A stretch of 41,038 bases of DNA from an uncultured Bacteroidales bacterium (GTDB taxonomy: Bacteria; Bacteroidota; Bacteroidia; Bacteroidales; UBA932). The translations under genes and the position numbers were made by a program. Positions 11,687 to 38,616 of the stretch are shown one piece after another; within the stretch, counting starts at the first letter, position 1; the number at the start of each line of letters is the position of its first letter. Location of the stretch: contig CAJODQ010000006.1 of NCBI GenBank assembly GCA_905233345.1, positions 64,001 to 105,038 on the forward strand. Direction: 5' to 3'. The notes beneath the pieces are model-generated. The model made no database searches. It was not told where the DNA came from and saw nothing but the letters and a program-made list of their open reading frames with translations.

Positions 11687-12432
11687 ATACGATACAAGAC
11701 ATACAAGCCGGCATCGTGGAGGAGTTCGCTGTCTTCACGGACTGGATGGACAAATATGAATACCTCATCGAGCTGGGCAAGGGAATGCCCCTGATCGACG
11801 AGAAGGACAAGACCGACGAGCACCTGATCAAGGGCTGCCAGTCGCGCGTGTGGCTGGCCTGCAAGCCCGAGAACGGGCGGTTGCGTTTCTCGGCCGACAG
11901 CGACGCCATCATCACGAAGGGTATTATCTCGCTGCTGCTGAAGGTCTACGACAACCAGACGCCCGCCGACATCTTGGCGGCCAACGAAGATTTCATCGAA
12001 CAGATCGGCCTGAAGGAAAACCTGTCGCCGACCCGGGCCAACGGCCTGGTGTCGATGATCGCTACGATCAAAGAATATGCGCGGCGGGGGATCCCGGGTC
12101 AAGCCCGGGATGAGGGGGGTCATGACAGGAAAGAACTTGAGCCTGATATCATTGCGGCACTGCGCAACGTCTACGACCCTGAAATCCCTGTCAATGTCTA
12201 CGACCTGGGCCTGATCTACGAGATCCAGGCCGATGCCGACGGGGTGGTGTTCGTCAAGATGACGCTCACCGCGCCGAACTGCCCCATCGCTGACGAGGTG
12301 GTGGCGCAGGTGCAGGAAGCCGTGGCCGACGTGCCTGGCGTGAAAGAGGTGCAGGTGGACCTGGTCTTTGAGCCGGAATGGACCACCGACCGCATGAGCG
12401 AAGAAGCGAAACTGGAACTGGGCATGCTATGA
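11683..12432 (+). CDS. SufE - DUF59 (MIP18/SufT-like) fusion joined by a palindromic repeat
   Basis: The 249-residue protein has two domains. Residues 1-134 are SufE, the sulfur acceptor that activates SufS, with acceptor Cys52 in HLIKGCQSRVWLAC. Residues 151-249 are a DUF59/MIP18 domain used in Fe-S protein maturation, with YDPEIPVNVYDLGLIY and Cys200 in TAPNCP. In Bacteroides I recall these as separate proteins, the second about 100 residues long. The linker, about residues 136-148 (GIPGQARDEGGHD), is encoded by a copy of the dispersed palindromic repeat at 12091-12111 plus flanks, so the fusion appears to run through the repeat. The gene overlaps sufS upstream and folK downstream by the 4-base ATGA form. 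The Mrp protein at 1943 lacks its own DUF59 domain; I infer that this fusion may supply it. Confidence 0.9.
   Translation: MNTIQDIQAGIVEEFAVFTDWMDKYEYLIELGKGMPLIDEKDKTDEHLIKGCQSRVWLACKPENGRLRFSADSDAIITKGIISLLLKVYDNQTPADILAANEDFIEQIGLKENLSPTRANGLVSMIATIKEYARRGIPGQARDEGGHDRKELEPDIIAALRNVYDPEIPVNVYDLGLIYEIQADADGVVFVKMTLTAPNCPIADEVVAQVQEAVADVPGVKEVQVDLVFEPEWTTDRMSEEAKLELGML
12091..12111. repeat. Palindromic repeat copy 1, inside sufE-DUF59
   Basis: A 21-base palindrome, arms ATCCCGGG and CCCGGGAT around TCAAG, followed by GAGGGGGGTCATGA. It is read in frame as I-P-G-Q-A-R-D. Orientation is opposite to the copies in mfd. Confidence 0.8.
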
Positions 12433-12845
12433 TCTATCTGGTACTCGGATCGAACCTGGGAGACCGGGAGTGGAACCTGGAGCAGGCGCTGGCCATGCTG
12501 GCCGAAGCGCTCAAGGTCGACATGCTCTGCTCGCGCGTGCTGGAGACCGAAGCCGTGGGTTTCAACGGGCCGGCTTTCCTCAACCAGGCGGTCTGCTTCG
12601 AGAGCGACATCGCGCCCGAGGCGCTGCTCGACCTTTGCCAGGACATCGAAGTGCGGCTGGGCCGACCGCGGCACGTGCCGGAATATGACGCTGCCGGTCA
12701 GCGCATCTTCCACGATCGCACAATGGATATTGACATTCTGAAATACAACGACTTAGAAACACATACCGACCGACTGGTCATCCCGCACCCGCAGCTATGG
12801 GAGCGGCCTTACGTACAAGAATTATTAAACGACATCACAATATGA
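12429..12845 (+). CDS. folK: Hydroxymethyldihydropterin pyrophosphokinase
   Basis: A 138-residue FolK, transferring pyrophosphate from ATP to 6-hydroxymethyl-7,8-dihydropterin in folate synthesis. Motifs: LVLGSNLGDREWNL at the N-terminus, ETEAVGFNGPAFLNQAV, and the catalytic HDRTMDIDIL followed by VIPHPQLWERPYV. The start is the ATG at 12429, overlapping the preceding stop (ATGA); the stop overlaps the glyS start in the same way. No other folate gene is nearby. Confidence 0.95.
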   Translation: MIYLVLGSNLGDREWNLEQALAMLAEALKVDMLCSRVLETEAVGFNGPAFLNQAVCFESDIAPEALLDLCQDIEVRLGRPRHVPEYDAAGQRIFHDRTMDIDILKYNDLETHTDRLVIPHPQLWERPYVQELLNDITI

Positions 12846-14389
12846 CACAGGAAGAAGTTTTCAAGACGCTCGTGGCGCACGCCAAAGAGTATGGTTTTAT
12901 TTTCCAGTCCAGCGAGATCTACGACGGGCTGAGCGCCGTGTATGACTATGGCCAGATGGGCGTCGAGATGAAGAACAATATCAAGAAATACTGGTGGGAA
13001 GCGATGGTCCATCTCAACGACAACATCGTGGGCATCGACTCCGCCATCTTCATGCACCCCCGCATCTGGGAGGCCTCCGGCCACGTGGGCGCCTTCAACG
13101 ACCCGCTCATCGACAACAAAGACTCGAAAAAGCGCTATCGCGCCGACGTGCTCATCGAAGAATACCTCGCCAAGCTCGAGGAAAAGATGAACAAAGAGGT
13201 CGAAAAGGGCCGCAAGAAATTCGGCGACGCCTTCAACGAAGAGCAGTTCCGCGCCACCAACCCCAATGTCCAGCGCAGCAAAGTCAAATACGACGAAGTC
13301 CATGCGCGTATGACCAAGGCCCTCAACGACAACGACTTGAAGGAACTCCGCCAGATCATCGTCGACTGCGAGATCGCCTGCCCGATCTCCGGTACCAAGA
13401 ACTGGACCGACGTGCGCCAGTTCAACCTGATGTTCAGCACCCAGTTGGGCAACGTGGACGGCGGCGTGGGCACCATCTACCTGCGTCCTGAGACCGCCCA
13501 GGGCATCTTCGTCAACTTCCTCAATGTCCAGAAGACCGGCCGCATGAAAGTTCCTTTCGGCATCGCCCAGATCGGCAAGGCCTTCCGCAACGAGATCGTG
13601 GCCCGGCAGTTCATCTTCCGCATGCGCGAGTTCGAGCAGATGGAGATGCAGTTCTTTGTCCGTCCGGGCGAAGAGATGAAGTGGTTCAGCAAGTGGAAAC
13701 AGACGCGCCTGGCCTGGCACAAAGCCCTGGGCCTGGGTGATGAGAAATACCGCTTCCACGACCACGAGAAGCTGGCGCACTACGCCAACGCCGCCACCGA
13801 CATCGAGTTCGAATTCCCCTTCGGCTTCAAGGAGCTGGAAGGCATCCACAGCCGTACCGATTTCGACCTCTCGCAGCACCAGAAGTTCAGCGGACGCAAG
13901 ATCCAGTATTTCGATCCCGAAACCAACGAGAGCTACACGCCGTACGTCATCGAGACTTCGATCGGCCTCGACCGCACCTTCCTGGCTATCCTTTCCTCGT
14001 CCTACACGGAGGAAAAGCTCGAAAACGGCGAGGAGCGCGTCGTGCTGCGCCTGCCGGCCTGCATCGCGCCGGTGAAGCTGGCTGTGCTGCCGCTGGTCAA
14101 GAAGGACGGCCTGCCCGAGAAGGCACGCGAGATCCTCGACGGCCTGCGCTTCGACTTCAACTGCCAGTACGATGAGAAAGATTCCATCGGCAAGCGCTAC
14201 CGCCGCCAGGACGCCATCGGCACGCCGTACTGCATCACGATCGACCACGACACCCTGGTAGACAACTGCGTGACCCTGCGCGACCGCGACACCATGCAGC
14301 AGGAGCGCATCCCCATTGAGCGCCTGCACGACATCGTTTCCGAAAAGGTCAGCATGAAGCCGCTCTTCAAACAGATTCACAAGATCTAG
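12842..14389 (+). CDS. glyS: Glycyl-tRNA synthetase, single-chain class II type
   Basis: The 515-residue enzyme is the alpha2-type GlyRS, not the alpha2beta2 bacterial form. It shows EYGFIFQSSEIYDGLSAVYD, VGIDSAIFMHPRIWEASGH, LRPETAQGIFVNF, the motif 2 stretch FRNEIVARQFIFRMREFEQM, and the C-terminal anticodon domain with RYRRQDAIGTPYCITID. It charges tRNA-Gly. It is the last gene of the sufS - sufE/DUF59 - folK - glyS run, every junction overlapping by four bases, so the set is almost certainly one transcript with coupled translation. A strong hairpin terminator follows at 14416. Confidence 0.97.
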   Translation: MTQEEVFKTLVAHAKEYGFIFQSSEIYDGLSAVYDYGQMGVEMKNNIKKYWWEAMVHLNDNIVGIDSAIFMHPRIWEASGHVGAFNDPLIDNKDSKKRYRADVLIEEYLAKLEEKMNKEVEKGRKKFGDAFNEEQFRATNPNVQRSKVKYDEVHARMTKALNDNDLKELRQIIVDCEIACPISGTKNWTDVRQFNLMFSTQLGNVDGGVGTIYLRPETAQGIFVNFLNVQKTGRMKVPFGIAQIGKAFRNEIVARQFIFRMREFEQMEMQFFVRPGEEMKWFSKWKQTRLAWHKALGLGDEKYRFHDHEKLAHYANAATDIEFEFPFGFKELEGIHSRTDFDLSQHQKFSGRKIQYFDPETNESYTPYVIETSIGLDRTFLAILSSSYTEEKLENGEERVVLRLPACIAPVKLAVLPLVKKDGLPEKAREILDGLRFDFNCQYDEKDSIGKRYRRQDAIGTPYCITIDHDTLVDNCVTLRDRDTMQQERIPIERLHDIVSEKVSMKPLFKQIHKI

Positions 14390-14415
14390 GCGACTTCGAT
14401 CGTTCTCAACGAAAA

Positions 14416-14460
14416 TCCCGGCCTCAAATTCGTCATGAATTGAGGCCGGGACTTTGTTTT
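14416..14460. terminator. Bidirectional terminator between glyS and the acyl-CoA synthetase gene
   Basis: TCCCGGCCTCAA (14416-14427) pairs with TTGAGGCCGGGA (14440-14451), with additional ATTC/GAAT pairing inside. A T-rich stretch follows on the plus strand, and AAAA before the hairpin gives U-rich tails on the minus strand. Confidence 0.85.
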
Positions 14461-14470
14461 AGCGTAGCTA

Positions 14471-16243
14471 TCAGGCGTTCTTGTACGTCTCAGCGATTAC
14501 CTCGGCGTAATGTGCCTGCAGATTGCGGCGCTTGAGTTTGAGCGTCTGCGAGAGCATGCCGTTGTCGGTGGTCCACTCGTCGAAAAGGAAGTGCACTTTC
14601 TTGATGTTCTCGTGGGCGGCCAGCTGCGCATTGACACTGTTGACACACTCATTCAGCGCCTTCACAATTTCTTGGTTTTCAAGCAATTGTTCTTTCTTTT
14701 CCACCTTAATTCCCTTCGCTTCAGCCAGGGCATTGAGCTTGTTGTATGCCGGAATGACAACCGCCGAAGCAAACTTCTCATCGGCACCGAACACGAACGC
14801 ATTCTCGATGAGCTCCGTCTCCTTGAGCAGCGTCTCAATGACCTGCGGCGCGATGTATTTTCCTGACGAAAGCTTGAAGATCTCTTTCTTGCGGTCCGTA
14901 ATCTTGAGGTACACGCCGTCTTTCAGGAAACCGATGTCGCCCGTGTGGAACCAGCCGTCCGCGTCGATGACCTCGCGCGTAGCCTCGGGGTTCTTGTAGT
15001 AACCCAGCATCACGTGCGGGCCGCGGGTCAGGATCTCACCGTCCTCGGCGAATGAGAGTTCCGTGCCGTCCATGGCCTTGCCCACCGTGCCGATCACATT
15101 GTATTTGTCGGCCGGAGAGTTGACGGCGATGACCGGAGATGTCTCCGTAAGTCCGTATCCCTCAAAGATATAGAGTTTCGCCGCATTGAAGCAACGCACG
15201 ATTTTTGCCTGGATGGACGAGCCGCCGCTGACGACCAGCATCTCGTGGCCACCGAGGTTCTCGCGCCACTTGCTGTAGACCAGTTTGTCGAAGAGTTTCT
15301 GTTTCTGCAGATAGAACCAGCTGGTATTCTCGTTGTCGAAATTGTTGGCGTAGTTCCAGGCCGCATCGTAGATCTTGCGCTTGAAGCCAGTGAGTTTCTT
15401 GCCCGCCTCGTCGAGTTTGCCGTACATCATCTCGAGCACGCGCGGGACGGCGCAGAAACCGTCGGAATGGCAATCTTTCAAGTCAGAGGCGATCGTAGCG
15501 AGGCTCTCCGCGTAATAAATGCTGATGGCCAGCTCCTGGTATTCGTAGTTCATGGTGCGCTCGTACATGTGGCAGAGCGGCAGGAAACTCACCATGCGGT
15601 GGCTGTAGTTTTTGGTCTGGCGGAGCGCATGTCCGTGCGAGTCGAACATCATGTTGCGGTGCGAGAGCATCACGCCTTTGGGCACGCCCGTCGTACCGGA
15701 AGTATACACAATACTGGCGCATTCGTCCGGACTGATGGTCTTCTTGTTTTCTTCCACTACCGGGCCGAATTTATCTTTGTTCTTGCGTCCCAGCTCATAG
15801 AGCTTGGAGAGGCACATTACATCGTCGGCGTCGTCGAACAGGATGAATTTAATGTCGCGGTCGATTTCAGCGGCGATCGGCGCCACGCGCTTGTAGAGCG
15901 CCGGCGAACCGACGGCAATCAGTTCGGCGTCCGAATGGGTAAAAATATGCAGGTAATCGTCTTTGCTCAGCGTACTATAGACTGGCACGTGGACCATGTG
16001 GGCCAAGTTGATACCCATGTCGAGGAAGTTCCATTCCGGCCGGTTGTTGGTGATGGTGATGACCTTGGTGCCGGCTTTGTAGCCCAAGGCCAACAGGCCA
16101 TAGGCAACGGCGTGCGCGATCTCATAGTATTGGTCAATGCTGTACTTGATCCATTTGCCACGCGTACGACGCGCCAGGATGTCATCTTTCGGCGGATAGG
16201 TTTTCAGGTTTTCGAGCAGGTCGAAAGTACGTAGGATTTCCAT
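14471..16243 (-). CDS. Long-chain acyl-CoA synthetase (AMP-forming, FadD/Acsl-like)
   Basis: A 590-residue ANL-superfamily adenylating enzyme. Motif A3 is seen as IVYTSGTTGVPKGVMLSH, A5 as YGLTETSPVI, A7 as GWFHTGDIG and the hinge/A8 region as ITDRKKEIFKLSSGKYIAPQ. The SSGKYIAP form and the length are typical of long-chain fatty acyl-CoA ligases, which use ATP and CoA at the inner face of the membrane. A TATATTTG box on the minus strand lies at complement 16263-16270, 20 bases ahead of the ATG. It is separated from mnmG by a repeat and a parS-like site, so it is probably its own transcription unit. Confidence 0.92.
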   Translation of the reverse strand: MEILRTFDLLENLKTYPPKDDILARRTRGKWIKYSIDQYYEIAHAVAYGLLALGYKAGTKVITITNNRPEWNFLDMGINLAHMVHVPVYSTLSKDDYLHIFTHSDAELIAVGSPALYKRVAPIAAEIDRDIKFILFDDADDVMCLSKLYELGRKNKDKFGPVVEENKKTISPDECASIVYTSGTTGVPKGVMLSHRNMMFDSHGHALRQTKNYSHRMVSFLPLCHMYERTMNYEYQELAISIYYAESLATIASDLKDCHSDGFCAVPRVLEMMYGKLDEAGKKLTGFKRKIYDAAWNYANNFDNENTSWFYLQKQKLFDKLVYSKWRENLGGHEMLVVSGGSSIQAKIVRCFNAAKLYIFEGYGLTETSPVIAVNSPADKYNVIGTVGKAMDGTELSFAEDGEILTRGPHVMLGYYKNPEATREVIDADGWFHTGDIGFLKDGVYLKITDRKKEIFKLSSGKYIAPQVIETLLKETELIENAFVFGADEKFASAVVIPAYNKLNALAEAKGIKVEKKEQLLENQEIVKALNECVNSVNAQLAAHENIKKVHFLFDEWTTDNGMLSQTLKLKRRNLQAHYAEVIAETYKNA

Positions 16244-16262
16244 ATTGAGAAGATTAATTTCA

Positions 16263-16270
16263 CAAATATA
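16263..16270 (-). promoter_or_regulatory. Acyl-CoA synthetase gene -7 box
   Basis: Minus-strand TATATTTG (complement 16263-16270) fits TAnnTTTG, 19 bases upstream of the ATG at 16243. No clear -33 element was found at the usual spacing. Confidence 0.5.
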
Positions 16271-16306
16271 ATAAAATATTCGTCAAGCCCGGCTTCATCC
16301 TTCGTC

Positions 16307-16348
16307 ATGTCGGACTTGATCCGGCATCTCATGTTCCACGTGGAACAT
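16307..16348. repeat. Palindromic repeat copy 2 with attached parS-like site
   Basis: An imperfect core, arms ATGTCGG and CCGGCAT around ACTTGAT (16307-16327), is followed after CTC by the 18-base perfect palindrome ATGTTCCACGTGGAACAT (16331-16348), which holds the parS consensus TGTTNCACGTGNAACA exactly. The last base overlaps the mnmG stop codon. Confidence 0.8.
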
Positions 16349-18336
16349 TAACGTCCGAAGTATACCAATAGAACCGAAATGTCAGCGGGAGAGACGCCGG
16401 AAATGCGTGAGGCCTGCGCGATGGTACGGGGACGATAACGGTCGAGTTTGATGCGGCATTCTATCGAGAGTGCCGTAATCTTGAAGAAATCGAAATCCTC
16501 TGGAATGGCCAGATCCTCCAAGCGCAGGATCTTTTCGGCTATCCGTTTCTCACGATCGATATACCCCGCATATTTGATCTCGATCTCCGTCGCATCGAGC
16601 ACCTCCTGCTCGTCGTAAACGATCTCTTTCTTTTCTTTTCCGTCCCACGGGAAAGACAAGGCAATCTCAGATGCCCGGTCAAGCCGGGCATGACCCGGGA
16701 GCCCCTCTCCCTCATTCCGGGCTTGACCCGGAATCTCATGTTCCACGTGGAACATATTGTTTTCGAGAAGTCCCGACAACGTCACATTCGGCCGGACAAG
16801 AAGGTCGGCGGCGCGTTTTGAAGAATCAATCGGTGCCTCACCGACCGATGTCAAATATGGATTAACCCGATCGGGGGAAAATGAGAGGTTTTTTAAATCG
16901 TTTGAGAGCTTTTCAATTTGCACTCTTTTGTTTTGAGAGCATTGCCAACGAAAATCGTCCACCAGGCCGATGCTGCGGCCTATCTCTGAGAGCCTTTCAT
17001 CTGCGTTGTCCTGACGAAGTAAGATTCGATATTCCGCCCGAGAGGTGAACATCCGGTACGGCTCGTCCACACCTTTCGTCACCAGGTCGTCAATCAGCAC
17101 CCCGATGTAGGCCTGGTCACGCTTCAGGATCAAGGGCTCTTTCCCGGCGAGACGCAAATGTGCGTTAATGCCCGCCATCAGGCCCTGCGCGGCGGCTTCT
17201 TCGTAACCCGTCGTCCCATTAACCTGGCCGGCGAGAAACAAACCGGCGACGACCTTCGACTCCAGCGTCGGCTTCAGCTGCGTCGGATCGAAATAGTCGT
17301 ACTCCACGGCATACGCCGGACGGAAAATCCGGACTTCCTCCAGCCCTTCAATGGCCCGGAGCGCAGCCAGCTGCGTTTCCAACGGCAGTGAAGAAGAAAA
17401 GCCCTGCAGATAATATTCAAAAGTGTCCCAGCCCTCCGGCTCCAGGAAAAGCTGGTGCGAATCCTTTCCGGCAAAAGTGCGCAACTTGTCTTCGATCGAC
17501 GGACAATAACGCGGCCCGATGCCCTGAATCTTGCCTGTAAAGAGCGGAGAACGGTCAAATCCCGTGCGCAGGATCTCATGCACGCGGGGGTTGGTATGCA
17601 CGATGTAGCAGCACTTCTGCGGCCGTCCCTGCTGAATCGCGGTCGGAATCGGCAGAAAAGAAAAACGCGCGGGCTGCGCATCGCCTTCCTGTCGTTCGAG
17701 ACGCGACAGGTCGAGCGAACGCACATCAATGCGCGGCGGCGTACCTGTCTTCATCCGGCCGACGGTCAGGCCGGCGGCGGCCAGCCGACACGAAAGACCC
17801 TTCGCCGGAAGTTCGCCGAGGCGTCCGCCTTCAGAAGTCTCGGTCCCGACAAACAGCCGTCCTTCGAGGAAGGTTCCGGCCGTCAAAACAACACTTTTGG
17901 CCGAAAATTCCGCACCCATCGACACGCGCACGCTCGAAATTTTCGATTCTCGCAGCGTTATGTCAACGGCTGTATCTTGCCAAATATCTAAGTTACAGGT
18001 ATTTTCGAGCACATAGCGCCAGTTCAGCGAAAAGTTGCGTTTGTCACACTGCGCGCGCGGGCTCCACATGGCCGGTCCTTTTGAACGATTCAGCATCCGA
18101 AACTGGATGGTCGAAGCGTCCGTCACGATGCCCGAAAAACCGCCAAGCGCATCTATTTCTCTGACTAACTGGCCCTTAGCAATTCCACCCATGGCCGGAT
18201 TGCACGACATCTGGGCGATTTTATTCATGTCTTGCGTCACCAGCAGCACACGCGAACCCAGCCGCGCTGCCGCCACCGCCGCTTCACAGCCGGCATGTCC
18301 GGCTCCGATTACGATGATATCGTAGTCAGCAACCAT
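16348..18336 (-). CDS. mnmG: tRNA uridine-5-carboxymethylaminomethyl modification enzyme MnmG with a repeat-encoded insertion
   Basis: MnmG (GidA) binds FAD and NADH and, with MnmE, modifies U34 of several tRNAs. The Rossmann motif [13 protein letters not shown] is at the N-terminus, then [43 protein letters not shown] and the C-terminal [10 protein letters not shown] domain. The product is 662 residues, against about 620-630 normally. The excess is an insertion at about residues 526-566, between TLSGLLE and [10 protein letters not shown]. It is encoded by a parS-like palindrome (read as MFHVEH) and two palindromic repeats (read IPGQARNEG and GHARLDRAS). The frame stays open throughout. The ATG at 18336 overlaps the end of ybeY by 11 bases, indicating coupled translation. 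The insertion falls in a probably exposed part of the protein; whether it affects function is unknown. Confidence 0.95.
16671..16691. repeat. Palindromic repeat copy 3, inside mnmG
   Basis: A 21-base palindrome with arms ATGCCCGG and CCGGGCAT around TCAAG. It is translated by mnmG on the minus strand as part of G-H-A-R-L-D-R-A, a different frame from copy 4. Confidence 0.8.
16714..16755. repeat. Palindromic repeat copy 4 with attached parS-like site, inside mnmG
   Basis: A core with arms ATTCCGGG and CCCGGAAT around CTTGA (16714-16734), then CTC, then ATGTTCCACGTGGAACAT (16738-16755). Layout and spacing are the same as at 16307-16348, 407 bases away. The stretch 16705-16737 matches 38577-38609 base for base. 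Confidence 0.85.
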
Positions 18337-18790
18337 GCTCCTTTTCGGCACGCATCTCGTCGAGCAGCTGCAACGCCCGGTTCTCCGCCGCGCGCATCCG
18401 CTGCTGCTTCCGGGGTGTCGTGTCATCGTAACCGATCAAGTGCAGCAGCCCGTGCACGATCACCCGGTGCATCTCGCGTTCGAATCCTTCGCAATAAGCC
18501 TTGCCATTGATCCGCACCGTGTCGACACTGATATAGATATCGGCGCTCACGCCCTTGCGTCCGGTCTCCAGCAGATAGTCGTCGGAGTTGTCGAAAGTGA
18601 TGATGTCGGTCTCATAGTCATGGCCCAGGAATTGCTGGTTGATGGCTTTCAGATACGGGTCGGAACAAAAAATGTAGTTGAGCTCGCCGATATCGTAGCC
18701 GCGCTGCGCCGCGACTTCCCGTAACCAGCTACTGATCAGCCGTTTCCCCTTGAGCGAGAAAGACGTGTCTTCCTTGAAATAACGTATCAT
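18326..18790 (-). CDS. ybeY: Endoribonuclease YbeY (rRNA maturation factor)
   Basis: A 154-residue YbeY, a metal-dependent RNase needed for 16S rRNA 3' end maturation. The segment [16 protein letters not shown] carries two of the three metal-binding histidines. The usual third one (HGxLHLxGYDH) is replaced by Asp, a change I recall in other Bacteroidota YbeY proteins. [22 protein letters not shown] matches the family middle region. It overlaps mnmG by 11 bases. A minus-strand TAATTTTG box at 18836-18829 is the likely promoter. Confidence 0.93.
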
Positions 18791-18799
18791 AAAATTTTA

Positions 18800-20676: not shown

Positions 20677-20707
20677 ATGGCCGCCCCAACAGGCGGCCAT
20701 TTTTTTA
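20677..20707 (+). terminator. Intrinsic terminator of the TonB-like gene
   Basis: ATGGCCGCC (20677-20685) pairs with GGCGGCCAT (20692-20700) around a six-base loop, and a run of T follows from 20701. Confidence 0.9.
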
Positions 20708-20713
20708 CCCTCA

Positions 20714-20772
20714 CCCCGGACTTGATCCGGGGCCTCCTGTCATTTCGAGCGAGCGTTGCGCGTCGAGAAATC
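20714..20772. repeat. Palindromic repeat copy 5 plus a second repeat type
   Basis: CCCCGGACTTGATCCGGGG (20714-20732) is a copy of the dispersed palindrome. It is followed by an imperfect hairpin built of ATTTCGAGCGAGCG and CGCGTCGAGAAAT (about 20741-20771), which looks like another REP family. It lies between the TonB terminator and the stop of the convergent peptidase gene. Confidence 0.7.
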
Positions 20773-21924
20773 TTATTTTCCCAATACTTCCAGAACTGCC
20801 TCGATCGGCAAGGCCTCAACGGTCAATCCCCCACGGCCAGTCATGTCGGTGGCCATGAAGAGCGAGTTCCAAACGGCTTCGGCAGTTGCCTCGATGGTCG
20901 CCTCGAAAAGCGGGCTCATGTCGTCATTATGGAGCAACGTAGGATAATATTTATCGGTACTCTCGTCAATCAGGTTCTCGGGGCAGACACTCACGGCGAT
21001 GACATAGTCACCACTGCCGTTTGAGGCGATGCCGCCGGTCTTGGCGATGCCCATCATCGCGCGTTTGGCAACGCGCTCAAGGTTGCGTGCATCGAGCGGG
21101 GCATCCGTTATCACCACAATCATGCAGGAACCGTCCGGATTAAGCTGGTAATCAGGATTCTGTACGCTTTTGCTAAAGCTATAACGGCCCAAGCGGCACC
21201 CAACCGGCGCACCGTCGATTTCCAGGATCCCGCCATAGTTCGTCTGCACGAGCACGCCCACGGTATAGCCGCCGAGGTCTTTCGGCAGCACGCGCGAAGA
21301 CGTGCCAATGCCACCTTTCCAGCCAAAACAAATCGTCCCCGTGCCGGCACCCACGCAACCTTCCTGCACCGGGCCGCCTTTGGCACTCAGGATCGCCTTG
21401 ACCACATGGTCGGCCGTGACATGGCGTCCGCGGATATCGTTGAGTTGTCCGTCGTTGGTCTCACCAACCACGGCATTGACGCTGCGCACGTTTTCATTGC
21501 CCTTTACGTTCAGCGAGTAGGACAGCACTCCCTCGATGCCCTGCGCTACGGAAAGCGTATTGGTGAGCACAATCGGCGTCTCGATGTTGCCGAGCTCTCG
21601 GATCTGCGTCACACCCGCCAGTTTGCCGAAACCATTGCCCACGTACACCGCTGCAGGACATTTCTTGCGGAAGATATTGCCCTCATGCGGCACAATCGCT
21701 GTCACGCCCGTGCGGATATCCTCGCCCTCCATGAGCGTCACCTGCCCGACCTTGACGCCCGGCACATCCGTAATGGCATTATACGTCCCCGGATGAAAAA
21801 TGCCCGGCGCAATCCCGAAATCCCGCAGTCGACCCCGGCCTTCCGGCCGAACCACATCCTGCGCCAAAGCGGCACAAGACAGCGTCAAAAGTATCCCGAA
21901 AGCAAAGAATCTTTTCATACCCAT
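20773..21924 (-). CDS. Secreted P1-family peptidase (DmpA/BapA-like)
   Basis: The 383-residue product has a signal peptide (FFAFGILLTLSCAALAQ) and matches the self-processing P1/S58 aminopeptidases: ITDVPGVKVGQVTL, VVGETNDGQLNDI, GGIGTSSR, and the expected autocleavage site Gly265-Ser266 in PDGSCMIVVITDAPL, followed by AKTGGIASNGSGD. By analogy with DmpA the new N-terminal Ser266 is the nucleophile, and the enzyme removes N-terminal residues from peptides. The start could be 21924 or 21918 (two ATG codons, MGMKRF); both keep the signal peptide. The minus-strand TATATTTG box at 21942-21935 leaves a leader of only about 6-12 bases. It is convergent with the TonB-like gene. Confidence 0.88.
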   Translation of the reverse strand: MGMKRFFAFGILLTLSCAALAQDVVRPEGRGRLRDFGIAPGIFHPGTYNAITDVPGVKVGQVTLMEGEDIRTGVTAIVPHEGNIFRKKCPAAVYVGNGFGKLAGVTQIRELGNIETPIVLTNTLSVAQGIEGVLSYSLNVKGNENVRSVNAVVGETNDGQLNDIRGRHVTADHVVKAILSAKGGPVQEGCVGAGTGTICFGWKGGIGTSSRVLPKDLGGYTVGVLVQTNYGGILEIDGAPVGCRLGRYSFSKSVQNPDYQLNPDGSCMIVVITDAPLDARNLERVAKRAMMGIAKTGGIASNGSGDYVIAVSVCPENLIDESTDKYYPTLLHNDDMSPLFEATIEATAEAVWNSLFMATDMTGRGGLTVEALPIEAVLEVLGK

Positions 21925-30855: not shown

Positions 30856-31990
30856 TATCCTGCTGGCAGTGACCCTGCTGGCGGCCATCCCTTCGGATGC
30901 CTGCACCTCAGCCATCTTTACGGGTAAAGCCACGCCCGACGGCCGGCCCTTACTCTGGAAGCACCGCGACACGGGAGAACTCAACAACCGCATTGAGTTT
31001 TTCCCTTCCGGAAATGGACGCAAATACAGCTTTATCGGCTTGGTCAACAGCCCTGTACAGGACGGAGAAGTGTGGACCGGTACCAACGAAGTGGGTTTTT
31101 CCATCATGAACACCGCTTCTTATAATCTGCAGAGCGAAGCCGCTGACTTCGAAGACCAGGAAGGTGTACTGATGTATCAGGCCCTGGGTAGTTGCAAGAC
31201 CCTCAAGGATTTTGAAAAACTGCTCGACAAGACGAAAAAGCCGCGTGGTATTGAGGCCAACTTTGGCGTGATCGACGCCGAAGGCGGTGCCGCTTACTAC
31301 GAAGTGAACAATACGGAGTGGCGCAAGATCGACGTAAACGATCCGAAGATTGCTCCGCAGGGCTATCTGGTCTATACCAATTATTCCTATACGGGCCGTT
31401 TGGACGACGGCATGGGCTATGTGCGCTATAGCACCGCCAATGAAATCCTGCAAAAAGCCTGGATCCGCGGGGAGCAGTTCACTCCGCAATGGATCTTCAA
31501 CAACCTGTCGCGCAGCTACTACAACTCATTGCTGGGTATTGACTTGAATAAGAATCCCGAGCTCGCGCCGGACGGTTGGTTTGTGGACCAGGACTTCATT
31601 CCGCGCCGCAGCACCAGTGCTTCCATCGTGGTCAAAGGTGTCAAAAAAGGCGAAAATCCCAACCTGACGGTCATGTGGACTATTCTGGGTTATCCGCCGG
31701 TGGGTATTGCCGTGCCGCTGTTCGTGGCCAATGGCGCCGATCAGCCGAAAGACGTGCTGAAAGGAAGCGGCAAGGGATACAACTGCCGGATGTGTGACCT
31801 GGCACTGGCCCGTCGTGCCGAAGTCTTCCCCTTGAAACGCGGCAACGGGAAAAACTATGTGAACGTGCATCGGGCGCAGGAACATATGAAAGCCATTGAG
31901 CTTCTGGAAAATGAGGTTTTCCGTGTCACGGAAAGGGCCCTTGACAGAATGTACGAAAAGGGTTCCTTCGACCGCAATCTCTTGCCATGA
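30833..31990 (+). CDS. Secreted N-terminal-nucleophile hydrolase (C45/acyltransferase-like)
   Basis: The 385-residue product has a signal peptide ([20 protein letters not shown]) directly followed by a Cys in [27 protein letters not shown]. This is the N-terminal pattern of the AAT/C45-like Ntn hydrolases related to isopenicillin-N acyltransferase; Cys24, from the ATG at 30833, would be the nucleophile. [16 protein letters not shown] and [19 protein letters not shown] also fit. The family cleaves amide bonds; the substrate is unknown. The start lies inside the end of ruvB and its stop overlaps the mfd start as ATGA. The position between two DNA-repair genes is probably operon hitch-hiking rather than a repair role. 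Confidence 0.8.
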
Positions 31991-34900
31991 TCCTTTCCGC
32001 ACAAGCCATATATATCGCCAATGCCGTGAAGCGCGCCGCCCAGGGTGCGCTTCATCTTGTGATTACCGACAACAAGAAGGAAGCCTACTTCCTCGCGTCC
32101 GATCTCGACAATTTTTTCCGGGAAGAAAACCTCTATTTCTTTCCGGCAACCAGCGAAAAGTCTGAATACAAGAAGAATACGGCCCTTCTCCAACGCACGG
32201 CCACCCTTTCCGCGCTGACCCGCTGGACCCCCGCACCAGCCCTCACCCCGGGCTTGACCCGGGGCCTCCCCGCAGATTACACCATTACTAAAGACTTATT
32301 GACGAAGGACCCTCTTCCTTCCACCATCATCGTCACCTACACCGAAGCTGTTGATGAACGCGTATTGCGCCCCAAGAAGATCCGGGAGTCCATCCTGGCG
32401 CTGCGCAAAGGTGAGAGCCTGTCGCACAGCGTCATCAGCGACGTGCTCTTCGAAGAGGGTTTCCGCAAAGTCGATTTTGTGACGCAGCCCGGCGAATTTG
32501 CCCTGCGTGGCTCGCTGGTGGACATTTATTCCTTTGCGGACGAACATCCGCTCCGCATCGACTTTTTCGGCGACGAGATCGAGTCGATCCGTTGGTTCAA
32601 CCCTGACAACCAGCTTTCCATCGGCGACCCCCTGCTTGAAATCTCCATTTATCCGAACCTCGACGAGATCGGCGAAGCGGAAGAATACGCCGGCTTCATG
32701 GACGTGCTGCCCGAAGGAACTACGATCTGGGACCTGCGCGACGATATCCTGAAAAACCAGGAAACGGGCATTGTGCCGCAGCCGGCCTTCGCCAAGAACT
32801 TCCAGCTGCTCTCCGACGACATCGTACGCAAGCAGATCGAAGGCTATACGGTGACCATCCTCTCGCCCAACGAGAGCCAGACGCGCCGCCTCAAAGAGAT
32901 CCTGCGCAACGTCTCACCGCAGTTCCTGCTGGTGTCATTACATGAAGGTTACATCGACAAAACCTCCAAAAACTGCTACTATACCGACCACCAGATCTTC
33001 GAGCGCTACCACAAGCTCAGCATCCACCGCCAGGTGGAACGGTCTGAGCAGATGACCATCAACGACCTCAACGCACTGCGCATGGGCGACTATATCGTGC
33101 ACATCGACCATGGCGTGGGGCAGTACGGCGGCCTGGTCAAAACCCACGTGGGCGGCCGCACGCAGGAGGCCGTCAAACTGATTTACAAAGACGGCGACGT
33201 GGTGTTCGTATCGATCCATTCCCTGCACCGCATCTCCAAGTTCAAGTCGCGTGACGGCGAGCCGCCGAAGATATACAAACTCGGCAGCAAAGCCTGGGAA
33301 AACCTCAAGCGTGCCACCAAATCGAAGGTCAAGGACATCGCTGAAGACCTCATCAAGCTCTACTCGGAGCGGCAGCAGGCCCGCGGCTTCGCGTTCAGCG
33401 CCGACAACTACCTGCAGCACGAACTCGAATCTTCCTTTATGTTCGAGGATACGCCCGACCAGGCCACCGCCACGGAAGCCGTCAAGGCCGACATGGAAAG
33501 CATCCATCCCATGGATCGCCTGGTCTGCGGCGACGTGGGCTTCGGCAAGACCGAAGTGGCCATCCGGGCCGCCTTCAAGGCCGTGTGCGACAGCAAGCAG
33601 GTGGCGGTGCTGGTGCCCACCACCATCCTTGCCCTGCAGCATTGGCAGACCTTCACGCAGCGGCTCAAGGACTTCCCGGTCAAGATCGACTATATCAGCC
33701 GCCTCCGCACTGCCAAAGAGATCAAGCAGATCGGCGAAGACATCGCTTCCGGGCGCACAGACATCCTGATCGGCACGCACAGTATCCTTAACAAAAACCT
33801 ACAGTTCAAGGATTTAGGCCTGCTTATCATCGACGAAGAACAGAAATTCGGTGTGGCGGCCAAAGAGAAAATCCGTCAGATGAAGACCTCGGTCGACACC
33901 CTGACCCTCACCGCCACCCCGATTCCGCGCACCCTGCAGTTCTCGCTGCTGGGCGCCCGCGACCTCTCGATCATCAACACGCCGCCGCCCAACCGCATCC
34001 CTGTCACCACGGAAGTTATCCGCTTCGACGAGGACTATCTGGCCGACATCGTGAACCGGGAGCTCGAGCGCGGGGGACAGGTGTATTTTGTGCACAACCG
34101 CATCGAAGACATCTACAAGATCTATGACATGCTGCATCGCATCTGCCCCAAGGCTGAAATCTGCGTGGCCCACGGACAGATGGAACCCAAAGAACTGGAA
34201 GAGAAGATATTGCGGTTCATTGCGGGTGACTATGACATCCTGCTCTCGACCACCATCATCGAAAACGGCATCGACATTCCGAATGCCAACACGATGATTG
34301 TCAACCGGGCGCACCGCTTCGGCCTGAGCGACCTGCACCAGCTGCGTGGCCGTGTGGGTCGCAGCAACGTCAAGGCCTTCTGCTACCTCATCGTCCCCGA
34401 AGAGGAGCGCCTGACCGACGACGCGCGCCGGCGTATCCGGGCCCTGGAGGCTTTCAGCGACCTGGGCAGTGGCTTCAACATCGCCATGCAGGACCTCGAC
34501 ATCCGCGGTGCCGGCAACCTCCTGGGCGCCGAACAGTCCGGCTTTATGGCCGAAATGGGCTTCGAAACCTATATGCGCGTCCTCCGCGAAGCCATGAACG
34601 AACTCGTCCTCTCTCACGCCCCTCAAAGCGCCCCTCACCCCGGGCTTGACCCGGGGCCTCCCCGCTTCTTGCTGGATATCGAAACCCAGGTCGACACCGA
34701 CCTCGAGATCATGATCCCCGACAGCTACGTCAACGTGCCGTCCGAAAAGATCCGCCTCTACAAAGAGCTCGACAGCATCAAGTCGGAAGACCTCCTCAAA
34801 CGCTTCACAGCCAACCTCGCCGACCGTTTCGGCTCGCCCATTCCCACCCCCGTGCTGGAACTCATCGACGTGGTGCGCCTGCGCATGCTGGGCAGCAAGA

Positions 34901-35130
34901 TGGGCCTCGAGCGCATCGTCCTGAAAAACGGCGTGATGCTGGCTTACTTCATCTCCGACCGCAAGCACCCCTTCTTCGAATCCGACCAGTTTGGCGCCAT
35001 CCTGCAGCAGCTGGCCGCCCGCAAGAGCGGCATTCATCTGCTCGAAGCAAACGGAAAACTCTACTTCAAAGTGCCGGATGTGCCTTCCGTGCAAGCCGCG
35101 GCACGCGTTCTGGCCCCGTTTTTGGTATAA
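31987..35130 (+). CDS. mfd: Transcription-repair coupling factor Mfd carrying two repeat-encoded insertions
   Basis: The 1047-residue ATPase displaces stalled RNA polymerase and recruits UvrA. After the UvrB-like N-terminal region come the RNAP-interaction domain (MGDYIVHIDHGVGQYGGLV), Walker A in CGDVGFGKTEVAIRAAF near residue 515, IIDEEQKFGV, TATPIPRTLQ, STTIIENGIDIPNANTMI, HQLRGRVGRSNVKAFCYL and the TRCF C-terminal domain. Two copies of the dispersed palindrome are translated in it, near residues 80-98 (LTPGLTRGLP) and 875-895 (HPGLDPGPP), in different frames and both in variable linkers. The N-terminus is some tens of residues shorter than I expect for the family; the ATG at 31987 overlaps the upstream stop, and no earlier start is available without entering that gene. 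Confidence 0.95.
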   Translation: MILSAQAIYIANAVKRAAQGALHLVITDNKKEAYFLASDLDNFFREENLYFFPATSEKSEYKKNTALLQRTATLSALTRWTPAPALTPGLTRGLPADYTITKDLLTKDPLPSTIIVTYTEAVDERVLRPKKIRESILALRKGESLSHSVISDVLFEEGFRKVDFVTQPGEFALRGSLVDIYSFADEHPLRIDFFGDEIESIRWFNPDNQLSIGDPLLEISIYPNLDEIGEAEEYAGFMDVLPEGTTIWDLRDDILKNQETGIVPQPAFAKNFQLLSDDIVRKQIEGYTVTILSPNESQTRRLKEILRNVSPQFLLVSLHEGYIDKTSKNCYYTDHQIFERYHKLSIHRQVERSEQMTINDLNALRMGDYIVHIDHGVGQYGGLVKTHVGGRTQEAVKLIYKDGDVVFVSIHSLHRISKFKSRDGEPPKIYKLGSKAWENLKRATKSKVKDIAEDLIKLYSERQQARGFAFSADNYLQHELESSFMFEDTPDQATATEAVKADMESIHPMDRLVCGDVGFGKTEVAIRAAFKAVCDSKQVAVLVPTTILALQHWQTFTQRLKDFPVKIDYISRLRTAKEIKQIGEDIASGRTDILIGTHSILNKNLQFKDLGLLIIDEEQKFGVAAKEKIRQMKTSVDTLTLTATPIPRTLQFSLLGARDLSIINTPPPNRIPVTTEVIRFDEDYLADIVNRELERGGQVYFVHNRIEDIYKIYDMLHRICPKAEICVAHGQMEPKELEEKILRFIAGDYDILLSTTIIENGIDIPNANTMIVNRAHRFGLSDLHQLRGRVGRSNVKAFCYLIVPEEERLTDDARRRIRALEAFSDLGSGFNIAMQDLDIRGAGNLLGAEQSGFMAEMGFETYMRVLREAMNELVLSHAPQSAPHPGLDPGPPRFLLDIETQVDTDLEIMIPDSYVNVPSEKIRLYKELDSIKSEDLLKRFTANLADRFGSPIPTPVLELIDVVRLRMLGSKMGLERIVLKNGVMLAYFISDRKHPFFESDQFGAILQQLAARKSGIHLLEANGKLYFKVPDVPSVQAAARVLAPFLV
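32240..32273. repeat. Palindromic repeat copy 6, inside mfd
   Basis: Core CCCCGGGCTTGACCCGGGG at 32246-32264. With its flanks this 34-base stretch is identical to 34632-34665. It is read as L-T-P-G-L-T-R-G-L-P. Confidence 0.85.
34632..34665. repeat. Palindromic repeat copy 7, inside mfd
   Basis: Core CCCCGGGCTTGACCCGGGG at 34638-34656. Same 34 bases as copy 6 but shifted by one reading frame, giving P-H-P-G-L-D-P-G-P-P-R. Confidence 0.85.
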
Positions 35131-35145
35131 TGTTTGAATTTTTAT

Positions 35146-35153
35146 TACTTTTG
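35146..35153 (+). promoter_or_regulatory. Promoter box of the outer-membrane protein gene
   Basis: TACTTTTG at 35146-35153 fits TAnnTTTG; TTTTG ending at 35124 is a possible -33 element (21-base spacing). It lies between mfd and the GTG start at 35183. Confidence 0.55.
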
Positions 35154-35182
35154 CAATTCGTACATTCCAAGAACCAGTCCCA

Positions 35183-36541
35183 GTGAAGAAGATAGAACGT
35201 ATACTGGTTGTCGCCTTCGCGCTTCTGCTGCTGTGCCCCGTGACCCTGCGGGCACAGGATGAGGATCCGCTGGCCAGCATCGGCTACTCGCCGTATTCCC
35301 TGTTTGGCTTTGGCGACATCTTGCGGCAGGGAACCTCCTACAACGCGATGATGGGCGGCATCGGCATCGGTGACCGCAACGTCCGCATGATCAATATCGT
35401 CAATCCTGCCGCCATCACGGCGCGCGAGCTCAAGTCCTTCATGGTCGACTTCGGCCTGGACAACCGCAACACCATCTACAACGGCAACGCGGCGCGCTCC
35501 ATGAGTCCCACGGCCGAAGGGGTGCAGCGCTCCGCCAGCAACACCTTCAACATGCACCACATCGTGGCCTCGTTCCCCATCGCGTCGCAAGGAGCTTTCA
35601 AGGTGGGCCTCATGCCCTACAGCACAGTGAACTACGATTTCCAGGCCTACGAGACCTCCGATGAACTGATCGCCAACGTGGGGGACATCGTCTACGACCG
35701 GACGGGCCGGGGCGGCTTCTACAAAGCCTTCCTGGGTGCGGGCGTCACGCTCTTCAAGCGGCTGAGTATCGGCATTGACGGCAACTACTATTTCGGCAAG
35801 ATCGTGCGCAGCAGCAGCGCCACCTTCAAGAACGCATCGTCCTACCGTGTCATCAACACCGGTTGGCGTGACAACGTGAGCTGCTTCGGCGCGAAGGCCG
35901 GTATCCAGTATTCACAGCCCTTCTCCCGCGCGCTGGTGGCCACGGTGGGCGTGACCTACGACTTCAACACGAAACTTCGCGGCGACCAGACCCGCTTCGC
36001 CTACGGCGAGTCCACCATGGACGGGGCTGACACCGATACCATCTTCTACGAGAAATACAAACTGGAAAACTATTCCATTCCGGGCGAGCTCGGTGTGGGC
36101 ATCTCGTTCCGCTACGCAGACCAGTGGATGGTGGGCTTCGACTACACCCGCCAGGACTGGCGCAAGGTCGACTTCGGCGGCTATCCGGGCGTCGACTTCG
36201 CGACGGGTGTGGCGCAGAGTTTCCGTGCAGGCTTCGAAGTGACCCCCAACCGCTATGACGTGCGTACAGGCTTCGGCCACTTCCTCAACCGGGTGACCTA
36301 CCGCGGCGGCCTCTACCACGAGCGCTCGTTCATGCAGCTGGGCGGAAGTCCCGTGGCTGCGACGGGCCTCACCCTGGGCTTCGGGATCCCGGTATTCCGG
36401 TATTACAACAGCATCAACTTCGGCGTGGACATGGGCCAGCGGGGCACTTTGCGCAGCAATCAGATCCGCGAACGCTACTTTTTGTTCACCATATCGTTCA
36501 ATTTGCACGATATTTGGTTTATCAAGCCGTTGTATAACTAA
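35183..36541 (+). CDS. Predicted outer-membrane beta-barrel protein
   Basis: The 452-residue product has a signal peptide (RILVVAFALLLLCPVTLRAQ) and a body rich in alternating aromatic/glycine beta-strand patterns, ending in FLFTISFNLHDIWFIKPLYN. The N-terminal part (SPYSLFGFGDILRQGTSYNA, RDG-like VNPAAITA) resembles the FadL-related barrels that stand before TPR, LptC and PpiD-like genes in Bacteroidales. The function is unknown; an envelope role is inferred from the neighbours. The start is GTG at 35183, because no ATG occurs before about residue 54 and the signal peptide begins here. A TPR-protein gene follows after 36 bases with its own -7 box. Confidence 0.75.
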   Translation: MKKIERILVVAFALLLLCPVTLRAQDEDPLASIGYSPYSLFGFGDILRQGTSYNAMMGGIGIGDRNVRMINIVNPAAITARELKSFMVDFGLDNRNTIYNGNAARSMSPTAEGVQRSASNTFNMHHIVASFPIASQGAFKVGLMPYSTVNYDFQAYETSDELIANVGDIVYDRTGRGGFYKAFLGAGVTLFKRLSIGIDGNYYFGKIVRSSSATFKNASSYRVINTGWRDNVSCFGAKAGIQYSQPFSRALVATVGVTYDFNTKLRGDQTRFAYGESTMDGADTDTIFYEKYKLENYSIPGELGVGISFRYADQWMVGFDYTRQDWRKVDFGGYPGVDFATGVAQSFRAGFEVTPNRYDVRTGFGHFLNRVTYRGGLYHERSFMQLGGSPVAATGLTLGFGIPVFRYYNSINFGVDMGQRGTLRSNQIRERYFLFTISFNLHDIWFIKPLYN

Positions 36542-36549
36542 ATATTTAC

Positions 36550-36557
36550 TAAATTTG
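36550..36557 (+). promoter_or_regulatory. Promoter box of the TPR-protein gene
   Basis: TAAATTTG at 36550-36557 with TTG at 36530-36532 (17-base spacing), 20 bases ahead of the ATG at 36578. Confidence 0.5.
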
Positions 36558-36577
36558 CCAACCAACTTGAGAAAGAT

Positions 36578-37891
36578 ATGAAAAAGTTTGCCCTCATTCT
36601 CCTGACCCTGGTGCTTGCAGTACCTGCTTTCTCCCAGGGAAGATTCGGAAAAGACAGCGCCGAATGCACGAAGTATCTCTCCTACTATCAGGAGTTGTAC
36701 AAGCAAAAAAATATGGCGGAAGCAGCGCCTTTCTGGCGTCAGGCTTTCTCCCTCTGCCCGCCCACGGCCAGCCAGAACATGATCATCAACGGCCAGGCCA
36801 TCATGCGCTATGAGATCGGCAAGAACCAGAAGAACCCCACGCGTTACAAAGAGCTCGTAGACACCCTGCTGATGCTCAACGACGTCCGTGCGCAGTACTT
36901 CCCCAAATATGCCGTCAAGAGCAAGGACAACAAGGCTATCGACCTGATCAACTACTGCGGGGCCGACTACGAGCGCCAGTACACGGAGCTCACCACGATT
37001 CTCAACGATATCCAGGGTGAGGCCAGCCCGATCGTCTTCGTCAAGCAGATGCAGTCGAGCGTCGAGATGTACCAGAACCAGAAGATCGGCGCCGAAGACG
37101 TGATGAACAACTACACCACGATCTCCGGCTATCTCGACAACAAGATCGCTTCGAGCAACGATCCGAAGTACCGCGATGCCAAACGCGACGTCGAGACCAT
37201 CCTGATTGAGAGCGGCGTGGCTTCCTGCGACAACCTGGTGGCTCTCTACACCCCGCGTTTCGAAGCCAATCCGAACGACGAGGCGCTCCTGGCCAACATG
37301 GTCAAGATGCTTTCCAAGAGCGAGTGCATGAACACCGACCTCTTCCTCAAGAGCATCGTCGCCCTCAACGAGATCAACCCGACCGCCAGCTCGGTCTACG
37401 GCCTTTATCGCCTCTACTCCTCGCGTGACGAGAACACCAAGGCTGCCGAGTCCCTGGAGCGCGCCATCAGCCTGCTCAACCCGGACGACGTGGCGACCCG
37501 CGCCGAATACACCTTCGAGCTCGCCACCTACTACTTCAAGAAATGCGGCAAGGCGGCTCCGGCCGTGGCCAAAGCCAAAGAGGCTGTCGAGATCGACGAA
37601 TCTTACAAGGGCAAGGCCTACCTGCTGATCGGTACCATCTGGGGTGGTCAGAAATGCGGTGGCGACGAAGTCAGCAGCCGCGCCAACTTCTGGGTGGCCG
37701 TCGACTACCTGCAGCGTGCAGCTGCCGCTGATCCGGAGGTGGCCGAGGATGCCAACTCGCTGGCAGCCCAGTACCGCCGCTACTTCCCGAAGACGGAAGA
37801 CGCCTTCTTCCTCGACATCACCGACGGCAGCGCCTACACCGTCAACTGCGGTGGCATGAGCGAGCGCACGACCGTCCGTACCAACAAATAA
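36578..37891 (+). CDS. Exported TPR-like protein
   Basis: The 437-residue product has a signal peptide (KKFALILLTLVLAVPAFSQ) and is alpha-helical with several tetratricopeptide-like units: YKQKNMAEAAPFWRQAFSLC at about 45-64, DENTKAAESLERAISLLNPD and APAVAKAKEAVEIDESYKGK further on, and YLQRAAAADPEVAEDANSLA near the end. Cysteine pairs (SLCPP, ESGVASCDN, KCGGDE, VNCGG) could form periplasmic disulfides. TPR proteins mediate protein contacts; here it probably works in the periplasm with the adjacent outer-membrane protein, LptC and PpiD-like products. No specific function can be assigned. Confidence 0.8.
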   Translation: MKKFALILLTLVLAVPAFSQGRFGKDSAECTKYLSYYQELYKQKNMAEAAPFWRQAFSLCPPTASQNMIINGQAIMRYEIGKNQKNPTRYKELVDTLLMLNDVRAQYFPKYAVKSKDNKAIDLINYCGADYERQYTELTTILNDIQGEASPIVFVKQMQSSVEMYQNQKIGAEDVMNNYTTISGYLDNKIASSNDPKYRDAKRDVETILIESGVASCDNLVALYTPRFEANPNDEALLANMVKMLSKSECMNTDLFLKSIVALNEINPTASSVYGLYRLYSSRDENTKAAESLERAISLLNPDDVATRAEYTFELATYYFKKCGKAAPAVAKAKEAVEIDESYKGKAYLLIGTIWGGQKCGGDEVSSRANFWVAVDYLQRAAAADPEVAEDANSLAAQYRRYFPKTEDAFFLDITDGSAYTVNCGGMSERTTVRTNK

Positions 37892-37909
37892 TTGGGCAAG
37901 AGTAAACAG

Positions 37910-38539
37910 ATGACACAAGTTGCGATGGCCGCCGCATTTGCGGTGGCCATCCTCTTGTCGTTGACTGCCTGTCACAGCGAAACGTCGAGCGACATCGATT
38001 TCGAGCAGCGCCCCGTCCAGGTGATCCACGACATGAACGTGTTGCAGACCGAAAACGGGGAAACGACCATGCGCATGCATGCGCCGCTGATGCAGAAGTT
38101 CGACTATTTCAAGGATTCGCTGCAGCAGAGCTATGAATTGTACCCCGACGGCTTCTTCGTGGATGCCTACACGGAGAACGGGGAACTCGAGACGTCCATT
38201 GTCTCGCAGCAGGCCAAGCACATCACCACCAAGGACCGGGAGTCCTGGAGCGCCTTCGGCGACGTGGTGATCATCAATCATTTGAAAGGGGAGAAGATCG
38301 AAACGGACACCCTTTACTGGAACCGCGCGGAGAAGAAAATCTACACCGACTGCTACGTCCGTCTCTCGTCAGAGACCGGCCTTCTCCAGGGCTATGGCAT
38401 GACCTCCGACGAGCGTGCCCGCAACGCCGTCATCCTCCGGCCCTTCGACTGGTACGCCGTCGAACGCGACTCCACCTACTCCTACAACGACACCGTCAAT
38501 TTCATTGGTCCGAAGAAATCCCGCGGCATCAGCCGTTAG
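37910..38539 (+). CDS. lptC: LPS-export protein LptC, lipoprotein form
   Basis: A 209-residue protein with a lipoprotein-type signal (ILLSLTAC, Cys21). The LptC/OstA-like core includes VQVIHDMNVLQTENGETTMR, MQKFDYFKDSLQQSYELYPD, SQQAKHITTKDRESWSAFGD and LKGEKIETDTLYWNRAEKKI. LptC is anchored at the inner membrane and passes lipopolysaccharide from LptBFG to LptA. I use the ATG at 37910; a TTG at 37892, directly after the upstream stop, would add six residues (MGKSKQ). The gene follows the TPR-protein gene by 18 bases. A palindromic repeat followed by a T run after the gene may end this transcript. Confidence 0.85.
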   Translation: MTQVAMAAAFAVAILLSLTACHSETSSDIDFEQRPVQVIHDMNVLQTENGETTMRMHAPLMQKFDYFKDSLQQSYELYPDGFFVDAYTENGELETSIVSQQAKHITTKDRESWSAFGDVVIINHLKGEKIETDTLYWNRAEKKIYTDCYVRLSSETGLLQGYGMTSDERARNAVILRPFDWYAVERDSTYSYNDTVNFIGPKKSRGISR

Positions 38540-38585
38540 CGGATACCGATCGGCCGCTTCCCGTCATGCCCGGCCACTCTCCCTC

Positions 38586-38616
38586 ATTCCGGGCTTGACC
38601 CGGAATCTCCTTTTTT
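38586..38616. repeat. Palindromic repeat copy 8, after lptC, with T run
   Basis: The core (38586-38606) has arms ATTCCGGG and CCCGGAAT around CTTGA. After TCTCC comes TTTTTT (38611-38616), so the repeat could serve as the lptC terminator. A partial unit, GTCATGCCCGG, precedes it at 38562. Confidence 0.7.

Follow-up and report, generated by a model that had tools for sequence, protein, structure and literature searches.

This locus raises the question of how one short palindrome came to lie, with the reading frame left open, inside several housekeeping genes of a gut bacterium. The window, meaning the whole stretch of 41,038 nucleotides analysed here (contig CAJODQ010000006.1 of assembly GCA_905233345.1), comes from an uncultured Bacteroidales bacterium whose genome is a 2.3 Mb draft and whose closest named relatives are uncultured rumen Bacteroidales. 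A reading made from the sequence alone had described eight copies of the palindrome in the window, five of them within coding genes. Our analysis places these copies in a large dispersed family of hairpins that match the CGTC-tagged repetitive extragenic palindromes (REPs); the explanation that we consider fairly probable is that these are non-autonomous hairpins, moved by an enzyme acting in trans and tolerated in frame within protein linkers.

All eight palindromes were present where the sequence-only reading had placed them, with cores at 12094(-), 16310(+), 16674(-), 16717(+), 20716(+), 32248(+), 34640(+) and 38589(+). The core types it named describe most of them; the copy at 16674 falls outside, being a stem-swapped variant (CCCGGCTTGACCGGG). 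The copy at 16310 has a T.G wobble in its stem (TCGGACTTGATCCGG). The five copies reported within genes do leave the frame open: one in the SufE-DUF59 gene (12094), two in mnmG (16674 and 16717) and two in mfd (32248 and 34640). Of the other three, that at 16310 comes immediately after the stop codon of mnmG, and those at 20716 and 38589 are intergenic. The copies, with their matches to a covariance model, and the genes that carry them are the following.

12088..12115, - strand: REP copy within the SufE-DUF59 linker; model match 12081-12121, 49.7 bits; antisense reading GIPGQARDE
16303..16330, + strand: REP copy immediately after the mnmG stop codon, adjoining a parS-like site; model match 16297-16337, 49.2 bits
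16668..16695, - strand: REP copy in the mnmG linker, stem variant CCCGG..CCGGG; model match 16661-16701, 26.5 bits, E 0.0028
16710..16737, + strand: REP copy in the mnmG linker, antisense reading EIPGQARNE; model match 16704-16744, 57 bits
20709..20736, + strand: REP copy flanked by two convergent genes, TonB-like and S58 peptidase; model match 20703-20743, 48.3 bits
32241..32268, + strand: REP copy at mfd site 1, read LTPGLTRGL; model match 32235-32275, 45.1 bits, and alignment
34633..34660, + strand: REP copy at mfd site 2, read PHPGLDPGP; model match 34627-34667, 46.9 bits, and alignment
38582..38609, + strand: REP copy with an LptC-like gene on one side and a SurA/PPIase-like gene on the other; model match 38576-38616, 56.8 bits
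11683..12432, + strand: SufE-DUF59 fusion gene, REP in the interdomain linker
16348..18336, - strand: mnmG (gidA), whose C-terminal linker contains two REPs and a parS-like site
31987..35130, + strand: mfd, two REPs outside Pfam domains

The copy at 16668..16695 is the weakest model match among the window copies and forms a head-to-head pair with that at 16710..16737. A search of the window with the core at up to 3 mismatches gave 12 matches, some of them non-repeat sequences, against 1.96 expected; the maximum among 100 shuffles was 5 and none reached 12. An Rfam scan of the window at the gathering threshold returned two tRNAs and nothing else.

The genome-wide search that had been proposed bore out a family: 51 exact cores were found in the own genome, and none of a reversed control pattern. 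With a covariance model at least 103 copies were obtained at E<=0.1, 150 of the 1729 first-look candidates having been scored; at E<=0.05, 106 copies were obtained in the window and in the stretches fetched around the 103. The unit, 28 nt long, has a CGTC/CCTC head at one end and a three-base tail at the other, with an 8-bp stem closing a 5-nt loop between them. Thirteen of the 106 matches were of other length and were excluded from the anatomy counts. Among the 93 full-length copies the head is CGTC in 67, CCTC in 22, TGTC in 1 and another sequence in 3; the loop is CTTGA in 72 and the tail CTC in 61. The first and second pairs of the stem base are A-T in 87 and T-A in 84 copies, respectively, and 79 have a perfect 8-bp stem. 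Eight of the 11 close copy pairs (gap below 120) are arranged head to head.

The two arms of the hairpin vary together. Pairing was found in 98.8% of 739 stem cells (9 were unpaired), a figure biased upward because the model, built from 32 exact-core copies, favours paired stems. Cells in which both sides had changed numbered 97, against 23.1 in shuffles, and none of 500 shuffles gave a value as high. A one-sided standard change was seen in just 1 of the 739 cells, and this was a wobble. The near absence of wobble pairs points to a hairpin unit that would be recognised or copied as DNA rather than maintained as RNA. Perfect stems were as frequent in coding copies (27/31) as in the others (52/62; P 0.77), which implies either recent insertion or renewal of the stems.

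Gene calling relied on a simple codon-usage method, with 16 genes of the window as training set; by it the fetched stretches are about 91% coding. Inside 27 called open reading frames (ORFs), weak cases included, lie 37 of the 106 copies; 55 are intergenic, and 14 that partly overlap a gene end were counted in neither class. All REP-bearing ORFs have Pfam matches (24/24 scanned outside the window and 3/3 inside), one of them below Pfam's cut-off (MG2 in L285, 31.3 bits against 32.8). The genes include those for SufE-DUF59, MnmG, Mfd, DnaG, MutS2, superoxide dismutase, an RNA methyltransferase and a GH94 enzyme; those for a DNA alkylation repair enzyme and an OstA-like protein contain three copies each.

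The sequence-only reading had argued that the unit tolerates insertion because only one forward frame meets a stop, and the consensus agrees: a single sense frame hits a TGA, which stands in the loop, and of the antisense frames one closes with a TGA at its far end. Besides the three frames it had listed, a fourth open frame (RFRVKPGMT) is used genome-wide. The 37 coding copies are read as EIPGQARND (14), VIPGLTRNL (8), RHSGLDPES (7), RFRVKPGMT (6) or in the TGA-bearing consensus frame (2); one of these last two is probably SFRTRSGIS in L279, where the copy's own sequence has no stop.

Copies within genes tend to lie outside recognised domains. Of the 37, 24 lie outside Pfam spans, where 13.6 were expected; the P value (0/20000) is indicative only, since inserts can split domain matches and the limits were entered by hand, two spans being estimated (the first EamA domain of L304 and one Fer4 part of L289). 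With one copy counted per gene, 17/27 lie outside against 9.5 expected (P 0.00045). In the SufE-DUF59 protein the Pfam matches SufE (55-174) and FeS_assembly_P (198-268) stand on either side of the insert. Comparison of superoxide dismutase with the solved structure 1ues and five genus orthologues showed that the copy encodes an insert in the interdomain loop. In an AlphaFold model of MnmG, residues 529-573, which include both copies, have pLDDT <50 and no regular structure except three residues; the insert is thus modelled as disordered.

Orthologues were compared for five of the 27 genes, those of SufE-DUF59, MnmG, Mfd, superoxide dismutase and DnaG. For all five, sisters were found that lack the insert or hold in the same linker another stem, orientation or frame. 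Both mfd sites are empty in genomes G003, G007 and G034, in line with the proposal that sister strains would lack the insertions; Mfd identity among the REP-richer sisters is 77-93%. At mfd site 2 the PHPGLDPGP of the window is replaced by VIPGLTRNL in G001 and G024, and by an inverted EIPGQARND in G032; G004 keeps a degenerate remnant there. A single copy occupies the sufE linker in the window and in G004; a second copy, of another stem type, occurs in G024 and G032, on opposite sides, and the linker of G001 has no REP. In DnaG, different REP-derived sequences were found in G000, G001 (VIPGSTRNL) and G004 (a degenerate VPGPARND), those of G001 and G004 being judged repeat-derived from reading the DNA rather than from a covariance-model score; the linker of G024 has none. 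The superoxide dismutase of G008 has RHSGLDPES in one loop, also a covariance-model match; its interdomain loop carries SCPAPTGHL, which derives from another stem variant. Outside genes, G001 also has a copy at the place of that at 16303..16330, and roughly the same place as that of 38582..38609 is filled in G024 and G032. The MnmG insert is likewise absent in G001, G004 and G024, but there the missing linker exceeds the repeat, so these are not the clean empty sites that had been predicted.

The mnmG linker has a further feature. A parS-like palindrome (TGTTCCACGTGGAACA) occurs at 16739-16754 within the linker and at 16332-16347 over the mnmG stop codon. With up to 2 mismatches, such a site lies inside the mnmG ORF of 75/80 named relatives (32 exact) and at 30/30 genus loci (18 exact, own included). 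It is read as VPRGT in 105/108 cases; the window reads its own site in another frame, as MFHVEH. The linker that follows varies between species from a few to about 100 residues (e.g. L062/L220; loci L060-L139 and L200-L229), perhaps because the DNA site and not the peptide is conserved. In the 587 kb around mnmG of the named loci L060-L139, 75 more sites (up to 2 mismatches) lie outside the gene, against fewer than one expected by chance on our own estimate, so that a parS cluster around mnmG is likely in the named relatives. A literature search on parS gave nothing relevant. Beside another window copy, that at 20709..20736, a second palindrome (GTCATTTCGAGCG...CGTCGAGAAATCT) follows immediately at 20739-20780; the motif GTCATYYCGAG has four matches in the other 383 kb fetched.

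Among the genomes of the order that were searched, matches were confined to the genus of the host. The covariance model at E<=0.01 matched 24/40 genus genomes, own included, and none of the other 16, with counts from 0 to 125. The exact degenerate core was found in 12/61 genomes, own included, all of the own genus; the 24 genomes from the order's other families lacked it. In a sample of the phylum a longer pattern occurred in 32/395 genomes; besides the own, all 31 were from other classes, with none among 5 genomes of the same order and 92 of the same class. This distribution fits an element that may have been acquired and expanded within the own genus. One genome of another class, G317, has 15 matches; the ten listed all share a stem G.T mismatch (TCATGCC...GGTATC), unlike the near-perfect stems seen here.

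We propose that the 28-nt hairpin spreads through the chromosome, probably in single-stranded form, and would be handled by an enzyme supplied in trans. Most of the surviving insertions are intergenic. Within a gene, survival would require a total length that is a multiple of three, a frame that avoids TGA, and a flexible linker, loop or terminus as the site; the surviving inserts would be translated and close to neutral. Because flexible linkers are tolerant, the same linkers would be filled repeatedly in sister species. Both movement by transposition and neutrality are our inference.

Several points weigh against this proposal. Five of the eight window sites are filled in at least one of four sisters, and this sharing may mean that the insertions are old. 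No target-site duplication was readable in DNA alignments of seven window places with G001, G004, G024 and G032, because the flanks differ by 10-25%; for some of these places the relative's stretch was absent or in another orientation. No enzyme of the Y1 class searched for could be linked to the element. The upward bias of the pairing figures has been mentioned. Some coding cases are weak: the L309 copy probably lies upstream of the true start, the L333, L296 and L308 copies form the last residues of their ORFs, and the L338 ORF runs into a stretch of N. Translation of the inserts in the cell is itself presumed from their sequence.

The strongest competing explanation is that old palindromes are rewritten in place, by hairpin-templated template switching or by gene conversion from other copies, so that both arms change and the hairpin can invert. 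In a comparison of six element positions between orthologues, at least two Watson-Crick states were seen in 9 stem columns, and a non-Watson-Crick state in 5 columns. Together with the scarcity of one-sided changes in the whole set and the inversion of mfd site 2 in G032, this is what rewriting would produce, and template switching at imperfect palindromes is already reported in E. coli. The same pattern is expected from independent insertions of different family variants, so that the six positions fit reinsertion and rewriting alike. The extra sufE-linker copies on opposite sides require additions, and one-sided differences at orthologous sites are not rare (10, against 18 two-sided, summed over 19 non-independent comparisons). 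We regard rewriting in place as unlikely, if worth keeping in mind. A wider form of the idea is possible, though doubtful: the hairpin would serve as a replaceable cassette for the interdomain linkers of Mfd, SufE-DUF59, DnaG and superoxide dismutase, being refilled, inverted or rewritten with both arms together. If true, each species would display a different short linker peptide while the hairpin itself stays nearly perfect.

Mobilisation in the classical manner, by a genomic Y1 transposase of the REP-associated transposase (RAYT) type, had been suggested by the sequence-only reading as a thing to look for. A search with PF01797, which covers the Y1 class, of the own genome and 40 genus genomes gave 68 places, and Y1_Tnp matches occurred in 27/40 genus genomes. 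The own genome encodes a Y1 protein of 305 aa (L031:1393-2310, contig C20) whose resemblance to REP transposases is weak (32.6 bits, where the cut-off is 80); no REP copy was found in its 3.2 kb locus, which takes in about 1.5 kb on each side. Among the 68 loci, three had a copy in the roughly 3 kb scanned per locus, one each, where 2.9 were expected from copy densities (1 against 1.3 in the first 30 loci and 2 against 1.6 in the other 38), leaving 65 with none. In one of the three, L239, a single flank of the Y1 ORF carries the copy, about 165 nt upstream. Y1 presence does not follow copy number: a Y1 match is lacking in G018, which has 48 copies, and copies are lacking in G034, which has two Y1 matches, both genomes being drafts. 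The head of the unit is CGTC and not GTAG. Y1/RAYT was rejected as partner, and we hold the classical mechanism to be improbable.

Selection for an intergenic role, as a 3' end hairpin, terminator or gyrase site, with intragenic copies as accidents, would account for the preference of non-ORF copies for convergent genes (22 among 63 copies for which both neighbours were called; 52/328 among adjacent pairs in the same fetched stretches). An RNA role would permit the wobble pairs that are almost absent; in addition 16 of the 40 genus genomes do without copies, and over a third of the copies lie inside called genes. This explanation appears very unlikely. Chance coding similarity or an assembly artefact is scarcely credible, for although some copies are found at the ends of contigs or close to them (e.g. 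C37, C30), the excess of window matches (12 against 1.96), the 51 exact cores against no reversed control and the related copies in the same genes of sister assemblies speak against it.

The preferred reading, that of CGTC-tagged REPs moved in trans, has a close precedent. According to Di Nocera et al. 2013 (PMC3733652), a CGTC superfamily of repeats includes Bacteroidetes among its hosts; REPs lie within genes of several species, many of these genes serving DNA synthesis and repair; flexible linkers were suggested as neutral sites; and no dedicated transposase was found, the means of movement being left open. The family described here agrees with that superfamily, in which an unpaired CGTC, CCTC or TGTC at one end goes with a stem of 8-9 bp and a loop of 4-5 nt, in its head, 8-bp stem, 5-nt loop and A-T pairs at the stem base, in its head-to-head pairs, in the leaning of intergenic copies towards convergent genes, in the presence of some genic copies, in its uneven distribution and in having no linked transposase, here for the Y1 class. 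It differs in its tail, mostly CTC where the known consensus is CCA-like (fitted by most tails there and no strict criterion), in the 37/106 copies within called genes and in the different variants held by the same linkers within one genus.

The sequence-only reading had drawn a parallel with the Rickettsia palindromic elements (RPEs), which proves apt: the same paper equates RPE-4 and RPE-6 with CGTC-4 and CGTC-1 repeats (PMC3733652). Both kinds of element lie in frame within protein genes; the present host, a gut bacterium, belongs to another phylum and is not an obligate intracellular alphaproteobacterium. With the GTAG REPs of the RAYT system the units share short dispersed hairpins, pairs and, in some species, intragenic copies (PMC3733652); they differ in head motif and in having no RAYT gene flanked by the repeat and no Y1 association. 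The newness that had been implied for Bacteroidota is not supported, since PMC3733652 already lists Bacteroidetes as CGTC hosts and describes intragenic REPs in several species. Among the matches listed in a literature search, CGTC repeats were treated only in that paper, and no other work on protein-coding REPs of Bacteroidota turned up; in PMC6006769 the search string occurs once. No answer later than 2013 on CGTC-repeat movement turned up, and no search aimed at one was made.

What looks new is how widely the hairpin has entered coding genes in a gut lineage and how often sister species have filled the same linkers, though a precedent in Bacteroidetes is possible. The presence of REP-rich (G000, G024, G007, G032, G015) and REP-free (e.g. 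G034) sisters in one genus makes a direct comparative search for the missing enzyme possible. The many in-frame inserts, those in DnaG and Mfd included, illustrate how, beyond the intracellular Rickettsiales, mobile DNA can supply protein linkers with new peptides.

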